Source: Halanaerobium praevalens DSM 2228
GTDB lineage: Bacteria; Bacillota; Halanaerobiia; Halanaerobiales; Halanaerobiaceae
Assembly: GCF_000165465.1 (NCBI RefSeq)
Contig: NC_017455.1
Location: forward strand, 62,001-126,000
Length of the DNA: 64,000 nucleotides
Direction: 5' to 3'
In this document: positions 7,353 through 55,595 of the stretch, piece after piece
How positions within the stretch are numbered: the first letter of the stretch is position 1
Layout: every line of letters starts with the position of its first letter
Translations under genes and position numbers: made by a program
The notes under the pieces: generated by a model
Databases searched by the model: none
Told to the model about the DNA's origin: nothing
The model's input: the letters and a program-made list of their open reading frames with translations, nothing else

Positions 7353-7451
7353 CTTTTAATTTTTTAAGCTTGATTTTGTTTTTTCACCTTATAAATGCTA
7401 AAATTAAATATATAATACTTTTGCTTATTTATTTTAAAAAATTGAGAAAAG

Positions 7452-8453
7452 GTGATAAAAATTAAGATTTTAATTGTTGATGATGATCAGGATATGCGGA
7501 TGTTACTAAAAACTTATTTAGAAAAATTGGAGGTTGATGAAATTCATTTTACAGCTACAGCTGCTGAAACATATGATTTTTTAAATCTGTCTGATTTGAA
7601 AACAGAACCAAAAGTTGATTTAATAATTTTGGATATTATACTTGAAGCTGAAAATGGAATTGAGATCTGCAAAAAAATAAAGCAGTCACCAGTTTATCAA
7701 GAAGTTCAGATTATTATGATAACTGCTCAGCAAGAGGCTGGTTTTTTGAGAGAAGCATTTGCAGCAGGGGCCATGGATTATATTAAAAAACCAATAAAAA
7801 AGATTGAGTTTATGGCTCGGGTTAATTCTGCTATTAAGTTAAGAAAAGAAATTAAATCAAGAATAGCAAGAGAAAAAGAATTATTGGCTCTTTCCGAAAA
7901 GTTGAAAAATGTTAATAAAAAATTAGAAAAGATGGCTTTAGTTGATGGTTTAACTGGAATTTCAAATCGTCGTTTATTTGATAAAACATTAAAAAAAGAA
8001 TTAAAGAGAGCCCGCAGAAAAGAAACAGAATTAGCTTTAATTATGCTAGATATTGATCATTTTAAACAATATAATGATACTTATGGTCATCAAGAGGGAG
8101 ATGAGTGTTTAAAAGAAATAGCCTCTGTTTTAGAAGCAAATAGTAAGCGAGCCTCTGATTTCGCAGCTAGATATGGTGGAGAAGAATTTGCTGTTATTTT
8201 ACCTGATACAGCTAAAGGCGGAGCTTTAAAAATAGCTGAAGATATTAGAAAAGATATTATGGCTTTAAAGTTAGAGCATAAAAACTCGCCAATAGCTGAA
8301 TATGTAACAGTTAGTTTGGGAGTTAGCAGCCTGCAAGTGAAAACTGAAGTTAGTCAAAAATTAATTAAATCTTTTATTGATAAGGCAGATCAGGCTTTAT
8401 ATCAAGCCAAAGAAACTGGACGCAACAAAACTGTTTACTATGATTTTAATTAA
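7452..8453 (+). CDS. response regulator diguanylate cyclase (REC-GGDEF, PleD-like)
   Basis: This 333-residue protein has an N-terminal receiver with the acidic triplet VDDDQDM, the phospho-acceptor Asp in LIILDIILEAENG near residue 60 and the conserved KKP lysine, then a ~35-residue coiled linker and a GGDEF domain. The active site reads GGEEF, and RxxD (RASD) sits exactly five residues before it, the standard product-inhibition site. Phosphorylation should dimerise and activate c-di-GMP synthesis. The first codon is GTG at 7452. It is followed by an HPt gene and a hybrid histidine kinase gene, so it is the likely output of that phosphorelay. Confidence 0.92.
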   Translation: MIKIKILIVDDDQDMRMLLKTYLEKLEVDEIHFTATAAETYDFLNLSDLKTEPKVDLIILDIILEAENGIEICKKIKQSPVYQEVQIIMITAQQEAGFLREAFAAGAMDYIKKPIKKIEFMARVNSAIKLRKEIKSRIAREKELLALSEKLKNVNKKLEKMALVDGLTGISNRRLFDKTLKKELKRARRKETELALIMLDIDHFKQYNDTYGHQEGDECLKEIASVLEANSKRASDFAARYGGEEFAVILPDTAKGGALKIAEDIRKDIMALKLEHKNSPIAEYVTVSLGVSSLQVKTEVSQKLIKSFIDKADQALYQAKETGRNKTVYYDFN

Positions 8454-35441: not shown

Positions 35442-36767
35442 ATTAATAATTTCGAGGTTTTAGGTAGCTTAAATAATTTACAGCAGTGGATGCTCTTGAA
35501 TCATAAAAGTCACAAATTAATTTATTTATTAGCTATTTTATTTTTAACAGCTTTTATAATTAAGACAATTACAGATAAATTTCGGATTCCAAGTGTTGTT
35601 GGCTATATTCTTTTGGGAACAATCTTTAGTCAGAGTGTAGTTAGTAATTTTGCTTTTCTTTCGAAAGAATTTTTAGCTTGGTATAATTATTTATTGAATA
35701 CCCTTAATTTTATTACCGTTTTAGCAGTTTCTTTTATTTCTTTTGGAATTGGAACTTCTTTATATATTAAAATTTTAAAACAGTTAGAATTAGAATTAAC
35801 TTTAATAGTGATTTTTGAATCTATAGGTGCTTTTGTTTTAGTAACAGGGGCAATGCTTTTGCTGGGGAAAGAGCTTTTTGTGGCAATTCTTTTTGGGACT
35901 ATAGCTACAGCTACAGCTCCCGCTGCTACAGTTATGGTTTTAAAAGAATATGGAATTCCCGGTGAGTTTTCAGCTACTTTGATGGTAGTTCTGGCCTTAG
36001 ATGAATTTTTAGCTCTATTAATTTTTTCTTTTATGGAACCCTTATCTTACATATTAGCTTCACCAGAATTAGAATTAACCATCACTAACATGCTGATTGA
36101 GCCTTTTCTTAAAATAGCTGCTGCAATTTTATTAGGTTTAATTATTGGTTATATTTCTCAATATTTAATGGTTAAATGTAGTTCTGAAACCAGAAAAATA
36201 TTATTAATCTTAGCAACTATATTGGGAACTACAGCTTCAGCAGTCTTTTTACATATTTCACCTTTATTTGCTAATTTAACAGTTGGTTTTGTTTACCGGA
36301 ATGTACCTCAGCGGAGGTTAAATGTTTCAGATAAAATAGATATTTTAACTGTACCACTTTTATCGACCTTTTTTATTTTAGCCGGTACTAAAATTGATAT
36401 TAGTAATCTGTTCCACAGTAGTTTTTTAATAATAGCAGTTACTTATACATTTATGCGGGCAATGGGTAAAATTGGAGGTTCTCACTTAGGAGCAAAGTTA
36501 TCTTCTGCTCCAGAGCATGTAGAAAAATATATTGGTTTTGGCTTAATTCCTCAAATTGGAATCACTATTGACTTAGCTTTTATAATTCAAAAAGATTTTA
36601 TCCACATTCAAGGTGATGTAGCTAATATTTCGATGTTAATTTTAAATGTTATTTTACTTACTTCAATTTTCACTGAAATATTTGGTTCTTTAGCAACAGA
36701 ATATGCTTTAATAAAATCACATGAGACTAAAAAACAGTTAAGGTGGAATTTTTTGAAAGTAGAATAA
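35442..36767 (+). CDS. cation:proton antiporter (CPA2/KefB-like)
   Basis: This membrane protein has ~12 hydrophobic segments and typical CPA2 features: IPSVVGYILLGTIFSQS near the N-terminus, TIATATAPAATVMVLKEYG, and ALDEFLALLIFSF with the acidic ion-binding residue. There is no RCK/TrkA-N domain. The first ATG (35490) has no ribosome site; an AGAAGGTGG site (35428-35436) points to ATT at 35442, the second codon after an in-frame stop at 35439, giving 441 residues. Non-canonical ATT initiation is therefore likely. Role: Na+ or K+/H+ exchange for pH and salt homeostasis. The ion is not deducible. Confidence 0.82.
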   Translation: MNNFEVLGSLNNLQQWMLLNHKSHKLIYLLAILFLTAFIIKTITDKFRIPSVVGYILLGTIFSQSVVSNFAFLSKEFLAWYNYLLNTLNFITVLAVSFISFGIGTSLYIKILKQLELELTLIVIFESIGAFVLVTGAMLLLGKELFVAILFGTIATATAPAATVMVLKEYGIPGEFSATLMVVLALDEFLALLIFSFMEPLSYILASPELELTITNMLIEPFLKIAAAILLGLIIGYISQYLMVKCSSETRKILLILATILGTTASAVFLHISPLFANLTVGFVYRNVPQRRLNVSDKIDILTVPLLSTFFILAGTKIDISNLFHSSFLIIAVTYTFMRAMGKIGGSHLGAKLSSAPEHVEKYIGFGLIPQIGITIDLAFIIQKDFIHIQGDVANISMLILNVILLTSIFTEIFGSLATEYALIKSHETKKQLRWNFLKVE

Positions 36768-48466: not shown

Positions 48467-51400
48467 ATTATATCTAAAATAAAAATTTCATTATTGGGAA
48501 GACCCTTAGTTAAAAATCAAGCAGATGAAGAAATTAAATTTCCTTATCAAAAAGTTGAAGCTTTATTTTATTATTTATTAGTTAAAAAGAAAGCATCTCG
48601 AAATAAATTAGCCACTTTACTCTGGGGTGAGATGCCAGAAAATAAAGCAAAGAAAAATTTACGCAATGCTCTTTATCAGTTAAAAAAGAGCGTTGGTCAA
48701 GATATAATTTCTACCCCTGATAGATTTATTGTTAAAATCGCTGCAACAGAGTTTTTAAGTTTGGATTTAGCTAAATTTTTAGAAAAAAAGCCTCAAGCAG
48801 CACTTAAATTATATCAGGGATCTTTTTTAAAAGGTTTTTTGCTTAAAAATGCTTCTGAGTTTAATAATTGGCTGCTTGAACAAAGAAATTATTATGAACA
48901 ATTATATATTAATCATCTCAAAACAGAAATTGGGAGCTGCCAAAAAGAAAATAAAGTAGAAAAAGCAGTTAGTTATTTAAAAACTTTAATCAAAACAGAT
49001 ACTTTTAATGAAAAAGCTTACCGAGAGCTAATGCAGCTATATGCTCAAACTGATAATTCTGCTAAGGCAATAGAGGTTTTTAAAAAATTAGAAACTGAAT
49101 TAAAAAAAGAGTTAGGGATTACCCCTGATCAAAAAACAATGGCCTTATTACAGAAAATCAGGGATAAAATTTCTAGTGAGCTTGAAAATAACAAACAAAA
49201 ACATAATTTTATTTTTAGAAAAAAAGAAAGTGAAAAAATAATAACTAAGCTTAATCAATTTATTAAAACAGAAAAATCTTATTCTTTTTTAATTTCTGGT
49301 GAAGCTGGAATTGGCAAAACAGCTTTGATTGAACAGGTTATTGCTGCAGCTGATTTAGATAATACACTCCTTTTGCAAACTAATTGTTATCAGGCAGAAA
49401 AAAATTATATTTTTAAACCTTGGAAAGATATTATGCAGCAGCTAAAAGAGGAAATTGATTTTGAGCAAATTAAGCTTTCACCACTCTGGAAAAAAGTTAT
49501 CTTTTTTTTATTTCCCTCTTTTTTACCAGATGAAGAAATTTCTTTTGCTAAGATGGTTAATTTTGATTCTATCAAGTATCAATCTGTAATTGAAGCCCTA
49601 CTTTTTGTTTTATCTAAGGCTGCTGAGGCTAAAAAGATAATTATTGTTTTTGAAGATTTGCACTGGTGTGATAAAAAAAGTTTATTATTATTAAGAAATT
49701 TAATTAGAGAAAATCAAAATAATAATATATTAATTTTAGCAACTTCTCGGAATCAGTGTTGGCAAAGAATAGAAAATATTTTTGCTGATTTAAAAGAAGC
49801 TAAATTATTGAAAAATATTGAACTAAAGCGCTTAACTCTTCCAGAAGTTAAGAAATTTTCTCGAAAATTTTTACCGAATTATAATTTTACAGAAGAATTA
49901 TTTACTAAAATACATAAAGAGACTGAAGGTAATTTATTTTTTCTAGTTGAATTGCTAAATTTATTGATGCAAAAAAAAGATAGTCAAGCTTTGACTGAAA
50001 TGTTAACTGCTAAAAGCAAAAATATTTTGAGCAGCCGTTTTTTTTCAGTCTCAAAAGAGGCACAAAAGATTTTAATAATAGCTTCAATTTGTTTTGATAA
50101 ATTTAGTTATGAGTTATTGGCAGCTGTGAGTGGAAAAAAAGAGCTGCAATTAATAGCAATTTTTGAAGAATTACAGTCTTTTAATTTAATTAATGAAGTT
50201 GAAGTTAGAAATAATAATCGAATTTTTTATCAATTTACTCACAGTAAATTACGTGAATTTATATATAATAAGCAGTCTAAATTCAAAGTAAAAATACTAC
50301 ATAAGAGAATAGCTCAGTTTATTGAAAATGATTTAGCAAAACAAAGAACTCAAAGAAAACAGTATTCAAAGCTTATTTATCATTACTCACGCTCTGGAGA
50401 TAAACTTAAATATTTGTTTTATTTAATTAAAGAAGCAGAAAATTATATGTATTATACACATGAGATATTTCCCATTACAAATGATCAAAAATTAGCGCGC
50501 GATAATGTACTTGATCTTAATCAAGAAAAATCTCAGAATTATTTGGTTAAAATAGAGTCTTTATTTACAGAAATTAAAAATTCGCCCGAATCGAATTTAA
50601 AAGATATGGAAGCTAAATATTTAAATATTAAAGCTCATTTTTTAATCGGAAAGGGAAAATATAGTCAGGCTATTTTGACTTTAAAATTAATGTTAAAAAA
50701 CGCCAACTCTATAAATAATACTAAAATAAAGTTAAATGCTTATGAACAGCTGGCAGCTTTAGGGATTCAACTAGAAGATCTTAGTTTAATTAAAGAAAAT
50801 GCAAAGAAAATGAATAAATGTGCTGATATTTTAGCTTTAAAAACTAAAAAGGGGATTGCGTTTAGATTTTTAGGGATCTTTAATTTATATAATAAAAATT
50901 ATAAGAAAGCAAATAAATATTTTAATAAGTCTTTAGATCTTTTTAGAAATGCCGAGACAATAACTAAAAAATATACTTTAGGTATAGCCTCAGCTTATAA
51001 TTATTTGGGTGAAGTTGAGCGTTATCAGGGGAAACTTGAAAAAGCAAATCAATATTATAAATACAGTATCAATTTATGTGAGCAAAAAAATATTCTTAGT
51101 GGTTTAGGAATATTTTATATTAATTCAGCTCAAGTATATTATGAGCAAAGTCAGTTTAAGCTAGCTGAAAAACAGTTTAAAAAATCTCTAGCTATTTATA
51201 ATGAGCTGTCTACAGTTTGGGGATATTCGAGTATTAGCTATAGTTATCTGTCTCTGATTTATCTAAACAAAGGTCAATATTTTAAAGCTTATAATTATTT
51301 AGACAAAGCAAGTTCAATGTTGGCTAGATTTTATAAAAGATATTGGTCTGGGATTTTTTTGAGAGCTGAAGCTGAGATTTCAAAAAAAATGAAGGTCAAT

Positions 51401-51535
51401 AAAGAAATAAAAGATGTTTTTTCAAATAAATTGTCTCTTAATTATCAAGAATATGCAGTCAAAGCAGTTTCTATTTTTAAAGATATTGGTACAAATTATG
51501 AGCTTAGCACAGTTAAAAATTTAATCAACAATTAA
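48467..51535 (+). CDS. large BTAD/ATPase/TPR transcriptional regulator
   Basis: This ~1022-residue regulator is of the SARP-STAND type. An N-terminal winged helix (LLVKKKASRNKLATLLWG, NLRNALYQLKKSVG) is followed by a bacterial transcriptional activation domain (~95-240, ending in ELGITPDQKTMALLQKI), an AAA/NTPase domain (Walker A SGEAGIGKTALIEQ near 280; Walker B IIIVFEDLHWCD near 385) and ~500 residues of TPR-like helical repeats. TTG 48494 is the first common start, but it has no ribosome site; AAAGGGGGGAG (48454-48464) points to ATT 48467 or ATA 48470, which also restores the usual beginning KIKISLLGRP. Located between hutI and hutH, it probably activates histidine use. Confidence 0.85.
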   Translation: MISKIKISLLGRPLVKNQADEEIKFPYQKVEALFYYLLVKKKASRNKLATLLWGEMPENKAKKNLRNALYQLKKSVGQDIISTPDRFIVKIAATEFLSLDLAKFLEKKPQAALKLYQGSFLKGFLLKNASEFNNWLLEQRNYYEQLYINHLKTEIGSCQKENKVEKAVSYLKTLIKTDTFNEKAYRELMQLYAQTDNSAKAIEVFKKLETELKKELGITPDQKTMALLQKIRDKISSELENNKQKHNFIFRKKESEKIITKLNQFIKTEKSYSFLISGEAGIGKTALIEQVIAAADLDNTLLLQTNCYQAEKNYIFKPWKDIMQQLKEEIDFEQIKLSPLWKKVIFFLFPSFLPDEEISFAKMVNFDSIKYQSVIEALLFVLSKAAEAKKIIIVFEDLHWCDKKSLLLLRNLIRENQNNNILILATSRNQCWQRIENIFADLKEAKLLKNIELKRLTLPEVKKFSRKFLPNYNFTEELFTKIHKETEGNLFFLVELLNLLMQKKDSQALTEMLTAKSKNILSSRFFSVSKEAQKILIIASICFDKFSYELLAAVSGKKELQLIAIFEELQSFNLINEVEVRNNNRIFYQFTHSKLREFIYNKQSKFKVKILHKRIAQFIENDLAKQRTQRKQYSKLIYHYSRSGDKLKYLFYLIKEAENYMYYTHEIFPITNDQKLARDNVLDLNQEKSQNYLVKIESLFTEIKNSPESNLKDMEAKYLNIKAHFLIGKGKYSQAILTLKLMLKNANSINNTKIKLNAYEQLAALGIQLEDLSLIKENAKKMNKCADILALKTKKGIAFRFLGIFNLYNKNYKKANKYFNKSLDLFRNAETITKKYTLGIASAYNYLGEVERYQGKLEKANQYYKYSINLCEQKNILSGLGIFYINSAQVYYEQSQFKLAEKQFKKSLAIYNELSTVWGYSSISYSYLSLIYLNKGQYFKAYNYLDKASSMLARFYKRYWSGIFLRAEAEISKKMKVNKEIKDVFSNKLSLNYQEYAVKAVSIFKDIGTNYELSTVKNLINN

Positions 51536-51611: not shown

Positions 51612-53159
51612 ATGAAAGAATTAATTATTGATGGTAGTAAATTAACACTAAAGGATATTGTTGAAGTTGCTAGAAAATCTAGAACTGTTAAATTAGCTGA
51701 AAAGGCAAAAGAGAAAATTAATAAATCACGAGAGATAGTTGATAAATTTGTAGAAAGAGAAGAAGTTGTATATGGAATTACTACTGGTTTTGGAGAATTA
51801 AGTGAAATTTGTATTCCCAAAGCTGAAGTTGAACAATTACAAGAAAATCTAATCTGCAGCCATGCTTGTGGAGTTGGGGAAGCATTTGCAGAAGAAGTGG
51901 TTAGAACAATTATGTTACTGAGGGCTAATGCTTTAGCTGCAGGTGTTTCGGGGATTAGAGTAAGTACTTTAGAAACTTTGCTAGAAATGTTAAATAAAAA
52001 AGTTCATCCTGTTATACCAGAAAAAGGTTCTTTAGGTGCTAGTGGAGATTTAGCTTCTTTGGCACATATGGTTTTGGTTATGATTAATAAAGGAGAAGCA
52101 TTTTATCAGGGAGCAAGAATAAGTGGAAAAGAGGCTCTGACTAAAGCTAATATTGAGCCTGTAACTTTGAAAGCTAAAGAAGGTTTAGCTTTAATCAACG
52201 GAACTCAAGTAATGACAGCAGTTGGTGCTTTAACTGTTTATGATGCTATTAATCTAGCTAAGCTTGCTGATATTTCTGCTGCCATGACTCTAGAAGCTGC
52301 CAAAGGAATTACAGATCCTTTTGATCAAAGAGTACATGCAGTAAGACCTCATAAGCATCAACAAGGTACTGCTAAAGATTTACTCAGATTAACAGAAGGA
52401 AGTCAGCTGACAACTAGGCAGGGTGAAATTAGAGTTCAAGATGCATATACTTTAAGGTGTTTACCTCAAATTCATGGGGCATCTAGAGATGCTATTGAAT
52501 ATGTTAAAGATAAAATAGATATCGAGATTAATTCTGTTACTGATAATCCATTAATTTTTACAGAAACAGAAGATGTTATTTCTGGAGGTAATTTTCATGG
52601 TCAACCAGTTGCTTTAGCTTTTGATTTTTTAGGTATTGCAATTGCTGAGCTGGCTAATGTAGCTGAAAGAAGAATAGAGAGGTTGGTTAATCCTAAACTA
52701 AGTGGTTTACCTGCATTTTTGGTAGAAGAAGAAGGACTTAATTCTGGTTTTATGATAACTCAGTATGCAGCAGCCTCTCTGGTATCTGAAAATAAGGTTT
52801 TAGCTCATCCTGCTAGTGTTGATTCTATACCTTCTTCTGCTAATCAGGAAGACCATGTGAGCATGGGGACTATTGGTGCTCGTAAAGCTAGAGATATTTT
52901 GTATAATACAAGTCGTGTCTTGGCAATTGAATTAATAACTGCTGCTCAAGCTATTGATCTAATAAATCCTGGTGGAGATAAACTTGGTAAAGGAACTAAA
53001 GCTGCTTATCAAGTTGTTAGAGATAATGTTAAAAAATTAGTTAAAGATCGAGTAATGTATAAAGATATTAATAAGAGTGCAGAGCTAATAGAAAAGGAAG
53101 AAGTTGTAAAAGCAGTAGAAAAGGCTATTGGTACTTTAAATCAGGAATTAGAAGAATAA
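51612..53159 (+). CDS. hutH: histidine ammonia-lyase
   Basis: The 515-residue enzyme removes ammonia from histidine to give urocanate. The MIO electrophile forms from A143-S144-G145 in GSLGASGDLASLAH; the catalytic Tyr54 lies in YGITTGFGEL. Other family motifs are NGTQVM, TDNPLIF and GGNFHGQP. An upstream extension to 51576 is open but TATGGAGGCC sets the start at ATG 51612. The gene is separated from hutU by the other pathway genes and follows the BTAD regulator gene. Confidence 0.96.
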   Translation: MKELIIDGSKLTLKDIVEVARKSRTVKLAEKAKEKINKSREIVDKFVEREEVVYGITTGFGELSEICIPKAEVEQLQENLICSHACGVGEAFAEEVVRTIMLLRANALAAGVSGIRVSTLETLLEMLNKKVHPVIPEKGSLGASGDLASLAHMVLVMINKGEAFYQGARISGKEALTKANIEPVTLKAKEGLALINGTQVMTAVGALTVYDAINLAKLADISAAMTLEAAKGITDPFDQRVHAVRPHKHQQGTAKDLLRLTEGSQLTTRQGEIRVQDAYTLRCLPQIHGASRDAIEYVKDKIDIEINSVTDNPLIFTETEDVISGGNFHGQPVALAFDFLGIAIAELANVAERRIERLVNPKLSGLPAFLVEEEGLNSGFMITQYAAASLVSENKVLAHPASVDSIPSSANQEDHVSMGTIGARKARDILYNTSRVLAIELITAAQAIDLINPGGDKLGKGTKAAYQVVRDNVKKLVKDRVMYKDINKSAELIEKEEVVKAVEKAIGTLNQELEE

Positions 53160-53243
53160 TTTGAGATTTTAAGTTAAGTTAAAATAAAAATTAAGATTTT
53201 TAAATTATATTTTAATTGAGAGAGAAAGGAGGTGTTTTAGACT

Positions 53244-54254
53244 ATTAGTTTTAAAAAATATTATAAAAAAGTAAATAAAGATGTTTGGCAGGGTAGAGTA
53301 GATGACTCAGAAGATTTTACGGCTTTTAGATGGCACCAGTGGGTAGAATTTATTGATTTAAATAACTGTGATTTATCTTTGCAGGCAGCTGAAACTGGAA
53401 TTTGTTTTTTAGGATTTTGCAGTGATCAGGGAGTTAAAAGAAATGGTGGTCGTCCAGGAGCTGCTAAAGGTCCAATAAGTATCAGAAAAGAACTAGCTAA
53501 TTTGCCAATACAATTTACTAAAGAAACTAAGTTATTTGATGCAGGTAATATTATTTCTCCTGATCAGGCCTTAGAAAAACAGCAAGAATCTCTGGCATTA
53601 GCAGTAGCAAAAGTCTTAGATTTAGGGCTTTTTCCTATTTTATTAGGTGGAGGACATGAAATTGCATTTGGTCATTACAGTGGTTTATTAAAGTCTAAAT
53701 ATAAATTACAAAAAGATGCTCAAATAGGAGTTATAAACTTTGATGCTCACTTTGATATGAGACCTTATCAAAATGGTGGGAATTCAGGTACAATGTTTAG
53801 ACAAATAGCTGATCAATGTCAAGCTTTGGGTGCTCCTTATTCTTATTTAGCTATTGGAATCCAAAAATGTGCAAATACAGTTAATCTTTTTCAGACTGCA
53901 GAGCAGTTAGGGGCAGATTATATTTTGGCCCAAGATATAACTAAATCAAATATATTAGAACTGCTAAATAAATTAAATTATTATCTTAACCAAAATGATT
54001 ATATTTATTTAAGTATTTGTGCTGATGTTTTTTCCTCAGCTATTGCTCCAGGTGTAAGCTCTACTCAGCCTCTTGGAATTGAAGCGGAAATTGCTTTGGA
54101 TTTGATCAAACATATAATTAAATCGAAAAAAGTTATTAGTTTTGATATTGCTGAAGTTTCACCCCGGTTTGATTTAGATAATTCCACTGCTAAATTAGCA
54201 GCTATTATAATTTTTGCTGTAGTTAATACTTTAGTTGGGGAAGAATTTCATTAA
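53244..54254 (+). CDS. hutG: formimidoylglutamase (arginase family)
   Basis: The enzyme hydrolyses formiminoglutamate to glutamate and formamide. Metal motifs are GGGHEIAFGH (H138) and NFDAHFDMRP (D167, H169, D171); in the last motif, LSICADVFSSAIAPGVSS, the first metal-binding Asp is a Cys (C259) while D261 is kept. The first common start, TTG 53379, would cut off a typical N-terminus (NKDVWQGRVDD...RWHQWVEFIDL). AGGAGGTG at 53227-53234 points to ATT 53244, two codons after an in-frame TAG, giving 336 residues. ATT initiation is therefore likely. It duplicates the function of the folate branch encoded upstream. Confidence 0.88.
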   Translation: MSFKKYYKKVNKDVWQGRVDDSEDFTAFRWHQWVEFIDLNNCDLSLQAAETGICFLGFCSDQGVKRNGGRPGAAKGPISIRKELANLPIQFTKETKLFDAGNIISPDQALEKQQESLALAVAKVLDLGLFPILLGGGHEIAFGHYSGLLKSKYKLQKDAQIGVINFDAHFDMRPYQNGGNSGTMFRQIADQCQALGAPYSYLAIGIQKCANTVNLFQTAEQLGADYILAQDITKSNILELLNKLNYYLNQNDYIYLSICADVFSSAIAPGVSSTQPLGIEAEIALDLIKHIIKSKKVISFDIAEVSPRFDLDNSTAKLAAIIIFAVVNTLVGEEFH

Positions 54255-54278: not shown

Positions 54279-55595
54279 TTGTTAACAAATCCTGTAGTTA
54301 TTTCGGTATTAGTAATGTTAGGCCTAAGTTTATTAAATTTAAATGTAATTTTAGCTTTACTAGTAGCTGCTCTTGTGGGAGGAACAGTTTCGGGAATGGG
54401 TTTAAATGAAACAATGTCAGTTTTAATTAATGGAATGGGAGGTAATGCTGAGACTGCTTTAAGTTATATTTTATTAGGTGCTTTGGCAGTTGCTGTTCAG
54501 AAAACAGGCTTAGCAACTATCTTGGCTAAAAAGATTGCCCGTGTTATTAAGGGTAAAAAAATGATTTTAGTTGGAATTATTGCAGTTGTTGCTTCTTTTT
54601 CACAAAATTTGATTCCTGTGCATATAGCTTTTATTCCAATACTGATTCCACCTTTAATTGGAGTAATGAACAAGTTGAAAATTGATAGAAGGGCAGTGGC
54701 ATCAGCTTTAACCTTTGGTTTGAAGGCTCCTTATGTAGCTATACCAGTTGGTTTTGGTTTGATTTTCCATAATATTATTAGAGATGAAATGGCTGCAAAT
54801 GGTCTTGAAATAACTACTTCTTCTGTATCTAGTGTAATGTGGCTTCCAGGTTTAGGAATGGTAGTTGGTTTATTAGTAGCTATCCTTATTACTTATAGAA
54901 ATCCTAGAGAATATAAATCGCTTCAAGAAACAGGGATAGAAGGTGAAGTTTCAGAAGATAATCAAGAAAAATTAGGTTTAGAAACTAAGCACTATGTTGC
55001 TTTAGTAGGAGCTTTATCAGCCCTTGTTGTGCAGCTAACAATAGGTTCTTTACCTTTAGGTGCCATAATAGGTATTGCAATTATGGTTATTTTTAGAGCT
55101 ATTAAATGGGAAAATATCGATGACTTAATAAATGGTGGAATAGGTTTAATGGGTTTTATTGCTTTTGTAATGCTGATTGCTTCTGGTTATGGAGCAGTAA
55201 TTAGAGAAACAGGAGCAGTTGCTCAGTTGGTTCAGTCAGCATCTAATGCAATTGGTAGCAATCAATTAATGGCTTCTACAATTTTAATTGGAGTTGGCTT
55301 AATTGTGACAATGGGAATTGGTACTTCATTTGGGACAATACCAATTTTAGCAACCATTTATGTTCCCTTAGGCTTAGAACTTGGTTATGGCCCTTTGGCT
55401 ATTGTTGTTTTAATAGGTACAGCAGCAGCACTTGGTGATGCTGGTTCACCAGCTTCAGATAGTACTTTAGGTCCTACAGCTGGTTTGAATGTTGATGGCC
55501 AGCATGATCATATTTGGGATACTTGTGTTCCAACCTTTTTGCATTTTAATATTCCCTTAATGATCTTTGGAATAATAGGATCTTTAATATTTTAA
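54279..55595 (+). CDS. NhaC-superfamily amino acid permease, probable histidine transporter
   Basis: The 438-residue protein has about eleven transmembrane segments and belongs to the NhaC-related YuiF/HutM-like family (IPVHIAFIPILIPPLIGVMN-like region, GTSFGTIPILATIYVPLG, GDAGSPASDSTLGPTAGLN). The family is annotated as Na+/H+ antiporter, but members linked to hut genes are considered histidine permeases. TTG start with TAGGAGGAA, 24 bases after hutG, as the last gene of the cluster, so histidine uptake is the best inference. Confidence 0.8.
   Translation: MLTNPVVISVLVMLGLSLLNLNVILALLVAALVGGTVSGMGLNETMSVLINGMGGNAETALSYILLGALAVAVQKTGLATILAKKIARVIKGKKMILVGIIAVVASFSQNLIPVHIAFIPILIPPLIGVMNKLKIDRRAVASALTFGLKAPYVAIPVGFGLIFHNIIRDEMAANGLEITTSSVSSVMWLPGLGMVVGLLVAILITYRNPREYKSLQETGIEGEVSEDNQEKLGLETKHYVALVGALSALVVQLTIGSLPLGAIIGIAIMVIFRAIKWENIDDLINGGIGLMGFIAFVMLIASGYGAVIRETGAVAQLVQSASNAIGSNQLMASTILIGVGLIVTMGIGTSFGTIPILATIYVPLGLELGYGPLAIVVLIGTAAALGDAGSPASDSTLGPTAGLNVDGQHDHIWDTCVPTFLHFNIPLMIFGIIGSLIF

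Follow-up and report, generated by a model that had tools for sequence, protein, structure and literature searches.

Here we present evidence that hutG, the formimidoylglutamase gene of histidine degradation in the halophile Halanaerobium praevalens, is likely read from an AUU codon at position 53244, as one instance of a regular use of AUU initiation in the order Halanaerobiales. The window analyzed is a stretch of 64,000 nucleotides from the genome of strain DSM 2228, and plain position numbers refer to it. The features of the hutG locus are the following:

51612-53159, + strand: aromatic amino acid lyase, probably histidine ammonia-lyase, so that the name hutH is probable; ATG start with GGAGG (PF00221, 676.9 bits)
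53227-53234, + strand: Shine-Dalgarno (SD) site of hutG, AGGAGGTG, read from the sequence and complementary to the 16S rRNA 3' end GGATCACCTCCTTT
53238-53240, + strand: in-frame TAG upstream of hutG, read from the sequence, which excludes any earlier start
53244-53246, + strand: ATT, proposed hutG initiation codon from the sequence and the homologue starts, at spacing 11 from AGGAGG
53244-54254, + strand: hutG, formimidoylglutamase, 336 amino acids from the ATT (TIGR01227, 278.3 bits, cut-off 229.15; PF00491)
54279-55595, + strand: Na+/H+ antiporter-family transporter, TTG start with SD (PF03553, PF13726)

The probable ATT start of hutG

An earlier, sequence-only reading of this DNA had placed the SD at 53227-53234, followed by TAG at 53238, ACT and then ATT at 53244, with TTG 53379 as the next common start, and this layout proved exact. 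ACT 53241 separates the TAG from the ATT, the frame is open to the stop ending at 54254, and TTG 53379 is the first ATG, GTG or TTG 3' of the TAG. Because the TAG stands two codons 5' of the ATT no earlier start of hutG is possible, and an upstream start was ruled out; GTG 53232 is in the hutG frame, but it lies within the SD and 5' of the TAG. Entry by frameshift from TTG 53216, which is in another frame and whose stop TAG overlaps the ATT, was considered by eye, found to be unsupported and dropped. The gene presents an in-frame AUU after a strong SD and has no usable canonical start. Its spacing of 11, counted from the end of AGGAGG, falls in the tail of the distribution for H. praevalens, where 14 of the 209 canonical SD starts of our first sample have it and the mode is 7-8.

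Judged by its family match the product of 53244-54254 is formimidoylglutamase, the TIGR01227 score from the ATT being above the cut-off and falling to 257.9 bits from TTG 53379, a start that drops the first 31 positions of the model. We found 29 homologous hutG loci, in clostridia, Bacteroidales and a few others, and took as the start of each one the best-scoring ATG, GTG or TTG at most 12 codons from the aligned position, these being the only starts considered and some having weak SD scores. Relative to the ATT of hutG, the homologues start at -1 codon (one locus), 0 (four), +1 (18), +2 (five) and +3 (one). As the best starts of all 29 lie within -1 to +3 codons of the ATT, the 45 residues preceding TTG 53379 appear to be real; and since that TTG has no SD and would cut conserved sequence, initiation at 53244 or within a few codons of it is very likely, ATT 53244 being the most plausible start codon. 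The earlier claim that hutG starts at this ATT is therefore supported by the upstream TAG, the homologue starts and the lack of an SD before TTG 53379. A start downstream at that TTG, or at an adjacent non-AUG codon (ACT or AGT, for example), seems to us improbable: TTG is a common start in this genome (64 of 386 canonical SD starts) and the 18 homologues at +1 have their start opposite AGT 53247, but the use of TTG 53379 would delete 45 residues found in the 29 homologues, and ACT was not enriched in the frame comparison described below (2/66 in-frame against 2/104 out-of-frame).

The gene is present in one of the 14 genomes of the family Halanaerobiaceae, so that its ATT cannot be traced through relatives. 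Together with a best match in Clostridium and with the finding of only weak arginase-family matches, in two other genomes, among the 38 of the order, this distribution argues that hutG was probably acquired horizontally. Under such an origin the start codon could have been lost by mutation after the acquisition, hutG then being a decaying gene with poor expression or with a near-start present by chance, and the spacing of 11 would be in keeping with this. We nonetheless consider decay unlikely, since the frame of 336 codons is open and gives a full-length TIGR01227 match above the cut-off, the SD is strong and intact, and other conserved genes show the same ATT pattern.

Frequency of ATT starts after Shine-Dalgarno sites

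The sequence-only reading had also proposed that ATT initiation is regular in this organism. We sampled 744 kb of the H. praevalens genome, about a third of it (the window and 34 stretches of 20 kb), with open reading frames picked by codon usage (604 genes) and with G-U pairs allowed in the SD search. The first test compared ATT in the start zones of genes without an SD-led canonical start with the codons after intragenic SD-like sites, at spacing 6-9 and an SD score of at least 14. The counts were 11/45 against 86/1559 intragenic in H. praevalens (P = 4e-5) and 6/18 against 32/980 in G002, a genome of the same genus (P = 3e-5); the other members of the order gave 2/7 against 24/433 (G012), 2/9 against 27/666 (G031), 2/4 against 34/741 (G018) and 0/6 against 13/170 (G005). 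ATT led 0/12 such zones in the control Clostridium sp. CS001, 1/8 in Peptoniphilus and 0/5 in clostridial loci.

The second test compared in-frame with out-of-frame codons after the SD in genes without an SD-led ATG, GTG or TTG, at spacing 7-8, a window that was picked after the data had been seen and at which canonical starts also peak. Pooling the six Halanaerobiales, ATT was found in 23/66 in-frame against 3/104 out-of-frame positions (P = 2.1e-8), with 9/31 against 1/50 in H. praevalens, 7/17 against 1/22 in G002, and 7/18 against 1/32 or 7/19 against 0/36 in the remaining four, depending on whether the codon model was trained separately or pooled. No enrichment was detected in these six genomes for ATA (3/66 in-frame against 7/104 out-of-frame), ATC or CTG. 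The SD scores before ATT exceeded those before canonical starts (median 18 versus 17, P = 0.006).

ATT genes made up 9/604 of all genes sampled in H. praevalens, 6/301 in G002, 2/138 in G012, 2/152 in G031 and 2/124 in G018, and none was present among the 73 genes sampled in G005, which belongs to the same genus. These counts retain all 21 ATT genes, including two that on inspection appear to be false (L225:1030, which probably lies within murB, and L136:18535, with an ATG upstream) and a doubtful one (L042:17733, with a GTG two codons on), and hutG, with its spacing of 11, is outside the 21. About 2% of SD-led genes would then have an AUU start, which extrapolates to roughly 25-30 genes in H. 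praevalens.

Plain pattern counts over whole genomes were too weak to decide, AGGAGG-N7-ATT giving little signal (43 matches versus 31 for the reversed pattern) and GGAGGTG-N6-ATTAA giving 12 versus 3 for the reversed pattern over the five genomes of the order that were drawn. In the third or so of the genome covered by our tests, by comparison, ATT after SD sites was commoner than chance, and regular ATT initiation in Halanaerobiales is supported by an enrichment specific to frame, spacing and codon, as well as by the conserved phosphatase start presented in the next section.

Whether Halanaerobiales are special in this respect is a separate matter. AUU starts may be real and equally frequent in many low-GC bacteria, the initiator tRNA variant described below being then unrelated to them, and we hold this reading to be doubtful though far from negligible. 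Staphylococcus aureus has AUU and AUA starts with extended SDs, at four non-canonical sites in the account of PMC13009471, and the class member G191, considered below, counts against a tight link with the tRNA. Set against this reading, the genomes matched show the tRNA variant in none outside the class, and ATT leads 21/892 SD-led genes in Halanaerobiales versus 1/283 in four low-GC controls (P = 0.018), a comparison in which the controls total only 497 genes and include the L. salivarius plasmid pMP118, without which the control count is 1/202 (P = 0.065).

Probable non-canonical starts in other genes

A non-canonical start kept across relatives is seen in a gene for a YwlE-like phosphatase (YwlE is among its solved relatives), whose initiation region reads IKKILFVCTGNTCRSPMAE. 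Its first codon is ATT, 8 nucleotides past GGAGG, in 12 of the 14 Halanaerobiaceae, including H. praevalens and G009, where an ATG also stands one codon earlier; the two exceptions are G011, with ATC and an ATT one codon earlier, and G012, with GTG at the same spacing of 8. This conservation bears on the alternative that the hutG ATT, known from a single genome, is a sequencing error for a true ATG. We find such an error hardly credible, given that the ATT of the phosphatase recurs in 12 family genomes and that, according to its report, the DSM 2228 genome was finished with 454 and Illumina data at 375-fold coverage with Illumina correction, at a stated error rate below 1/100,000, its genes having been called with Prodigal and GenePRIMP (PMC3156398).

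In two other genes an ATT aligns with an ATG in a relative, namely in an ABC permease (L044:5574; ATG in L138 of G012) and in BioY (L048:12956; ATG in L121 of G018). We also observed that the ABC permease at L044:5574 and the phosphatase at L050:6793, which are unrelated genes, share an identical initiation region of 18 bases, GGAGGTGGAGACAATTAA, and that the phosphatase orthologue L189 (G009) has one in-frame TAA inside the match. Homologues of hflX from two families of the order (L072:3019 in G002 and L110:9502 in G031) each show an ATT, preceded by an SD, as a candidate start. A SNF2 helicase gene on the minus strand of G018 (L124:4594), with best NCBIfam matches to DrmD that are below the cut-off, has an SD match 12 bases long and, at spacing 8 from it, an ATT.

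Three further candidates lie within the window:

7461-8453, + strand: response regulator-GGDEF gene, candidate ATT start from the sequence and orthologues, SD at about 7449-7456, spacing 8
35442-36767, + strand: PF00999 antiporter, candidate ATT start adjoining the in-frame TAA 35439-35441, SD AAGGTGG
48467-51535, + strand: BTAD regulator, candidate start ATT 48467 (spacing 5) or ATA 48470 (spacing 8), next common start TTG 48494

The sequence-only reading had counted three ATT cases in 64 kb, hutG and two more that are probably the PF00999 antiporter and the BTAD regulator. The hutG case stands and ATT 35442 of the antiporter is a candidate, while the BTAD regulator may start at ATT 48467 or at ATA 48470. 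The response regulator-GGDEF gene, which was not named in that finding, appears to be a stronger case: its N-terminus from ATT 7461 would be IKILIVDDD, and the codon is ATA in five orthologues of the genus, in two of which an ATG lies two codons upstream, within the SD.

Initiator tRNA and the fidelity of initiation

The earlier suggestion that the initiator tRNA be checked was fruitful. Two such genes were located in H. praevalens:

L219:4094-4170 (genome 904094-904170): initiator tRNA gene with A29-U41 and G31-U39, from the sequence
genome 1910874-1910950, - strand: initiator tRNA gene with A29-U41, from the sequence

Both genes have C1-A72 ends, a CAU anticodon, A29-U41 and G30-C40, and at pair 31-39 the copies differ, one having G31-C39 and the other G31-U39 (AU/GC/GC and AU/GC/GU), so that both lack the three G-C pairs, as in the mycoplasma type. 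A29-U41 stands in place of G29-C41 in all 30 initiator tRNA genes of the 17 pattern-matched genomes among the 38 of the order, the other 21 having lacked a match to the fixed tRNA arms and being hence outside this count; four of the 30 genes, in four genomes, additionally have G31-U39. Across the phylum 72 of 299 genomes were matched, and the matches listed for the 66 outside the class have G29-C41 when read by eye, one of the genomes outside the class (G288) having an initiator gene with G31-U39. Within the class but outside the order, G191 has A29-U41 and G158 has G29-C41, also read by eye. No special initiator tRNA with an isoleucine anticodon was present in the loci scanned, where the initiators carry CAU; both tRNA-Ile genes that were read have a GAT anticodon and a G1-C72 end. 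The variant of the initiator tRNA thus came to light in addition, and it makes the question testable.

Mycoplasma-type relaxed initiation is defined in part by a replacement of IF3 R131, and a uS9 tail with TKR in place of SKR is a further feature of that type. We did not find the IF3 replacement in H. praevalens, where R123 stands opposite R131 of 8jsg_A, a chain of 180 residues that we take to be E. coli IF3. The uS9 change was likewise not found in two relatives, L106 (G031) and L129 (G005), where the tail is an ordinary SKR, and the motif scan of the stretches read gave no match for the uS9 of H. praevalens itself. These ordinary features count against a relaxation of the mycoplasma type. 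Elsewhere in IF3 (L219:11608-12120), Q and G occupy the positions aligned with K97 and R99 of 8jsg_A; the residue opposite K97 is R in five further Bacillota IF3 sequences (L173-L177). For infC of H. praevalens the apparent start is ATC, behind a strong SD.

Data from E. coli suggest how the tRNA and the starts might be connected. As described in PMC11497404, 16S residues G1338 and A1339 touch both pair 29-41 and pair 30-40, CUG is discriminated against less well once pair 30-40 has been swapped, and G1338A, which tightens the grip, likewise raises noncanonical initiation; the pair altered in that account is 30-40, not 29-41. In vitro and in the presence of IF3, fMet at AUU/CAU gave 31.1% full-length among the products, and weak pairs, of which AUU/CAU was one, were reported to give extremely low yields in absolute terms (PMC10158994). 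Given the contacts of G1338 and A1339 with pairs 29-41 and 30-40, and the AU/GC/GU stem of Mycoplasma pneumoniae, the cause may reasonably be sought in altered checking at the 30S head. In favour of the link are the 12 versus 3 matches to GGAGGTG-N6-ATTAA in the five genomes drawn from the order. Against the link, G191 has A29-U41 yet gave 0 matches to GGAGGTG-N6-ATTAA versus 3 for the control; the class members G081 and G313 gave 3 and 4 matches (control 1 each), the tRNAs of both being outside the assessed set. A correlation within a single clade is not cause, and on balance we tend not to believe that the A29-U41 initiator tRNA causes the relaxed use of AUU.

Possible mechanism and its implications

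In the mechanism that we propose, the long SD helix would position AUU 53244 for the initiation of hutG, and the formyl-Met initiator tRNA (CAU) would read it through a C-U mismatch at the third position, AUU codons at starts being thus presumably decoded as Met. A29-U41, joined by G31-U39 in one copy of some genomes, would replace the first of the three G-C pairs that the 30S head holds and so may relax the checking of the start codon, with strong SDs (the higher median given above) holding the AUU in place. Because AUU and AUA starts in S. aureus give about 10% of the AUG yield in poor medium (PMC13009471), the AUU of hutG likely lowers its expression, as such starts may do in general. Drift, were checking relaxed, would give the same picture as a use of AUU to limit expression.

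A broader proposal, to which we give tentative credence at most, is that the whole order has relaxed start checking, its changed initiator tRNA having evolved together with routine AUU, and sometimes AUA, starts in dozens of ordinary genes per genome. If this were true, Halanaerobiales would be a lineage, separate from the mycoplasmas, that gave up the three G-C pairs and in which strong SDs took over start selection. Gene callers such as Prodigal accept only ATG, GTG and TTG, and AUU genes consequently receive wrong or shortened N-termini; under order-wide relaxation callers of this kind would mis-annotate such genes. The role of the three G-C pairs of the initiator is known mainly from E. 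coli mutants and mycoplasmas, and should the tRNA link hold, Halanaerobiales would offer a free-living natural test of what these pairs contribute to start-codon fidelity. In our literature search no title on Halanaerobium covered AUU starts, and the combination of Halanaerobiales with initiator tRNA returned nothing.

Comparison with known systems

AUU in place of AUG in conserved genes is shared with E. coli, where infC and pcnB use an AUU start, which in infC serves regulation (cited in PMC1780047, where the lepA genes of Borrelia burgdorferi and Bacillus licheniformis are also proposed to start at AUU). For E. coli that source names two genes, whereas in H. praevalens the predicted AUU starts concern the 2% or so of SD-led genes estimated above, which are ordinary metabolic and transport genes; regulation through AUU is a feature of E. 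coli infC, while the H. praevalens cases are known from sequence alone. The pncA gene of B. burgdorferi (BBE22) has, like hutG, an AUU start, in its case missed by annotation so that a truncated protein stands in databases (PMC13398362); pncA is a single gene backed by structure and earlier genetics, and hutG is backed by sequence.

In S. aureus, non-canonical starts are reported for cvfC1 (AUU), ccpN (AUA), citZ (AUA) and infC (AUA), all with strong, extended SDs, and two of the four are kept among relatives (PMC13009471). Halanaerobiales resemble S. aureus in having AUU or AUA starts behind strong SDs, but the four sites of S. aureus come from the whole translatome, while the candidates in Halanaerobiales are more numerous and predicted from genomes.

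The unconventional initiator tRNA of mycoplasmas has reportedly been tied to non-AUG starts, as the title of a 2018 study by Ayyub et al. suggests. The initiator anticodon stem of M. pneumoniae is AU/GC/GU (PMC10568206, citing Ayyub et al. 2018), so that the three G-C pairs are broken there in the same way as in H. praevalens, with its AU/GC/GC and AU/GC/GU copies. H. praevalens differs from the mycoplasma type in its unchanged equivalent of IF3 R131, and two of its relatives differ in their uS9 SKR tails; unlike mycoplasmas, moreover, Halanaerobiales are free-living halophiles with strong SDs.
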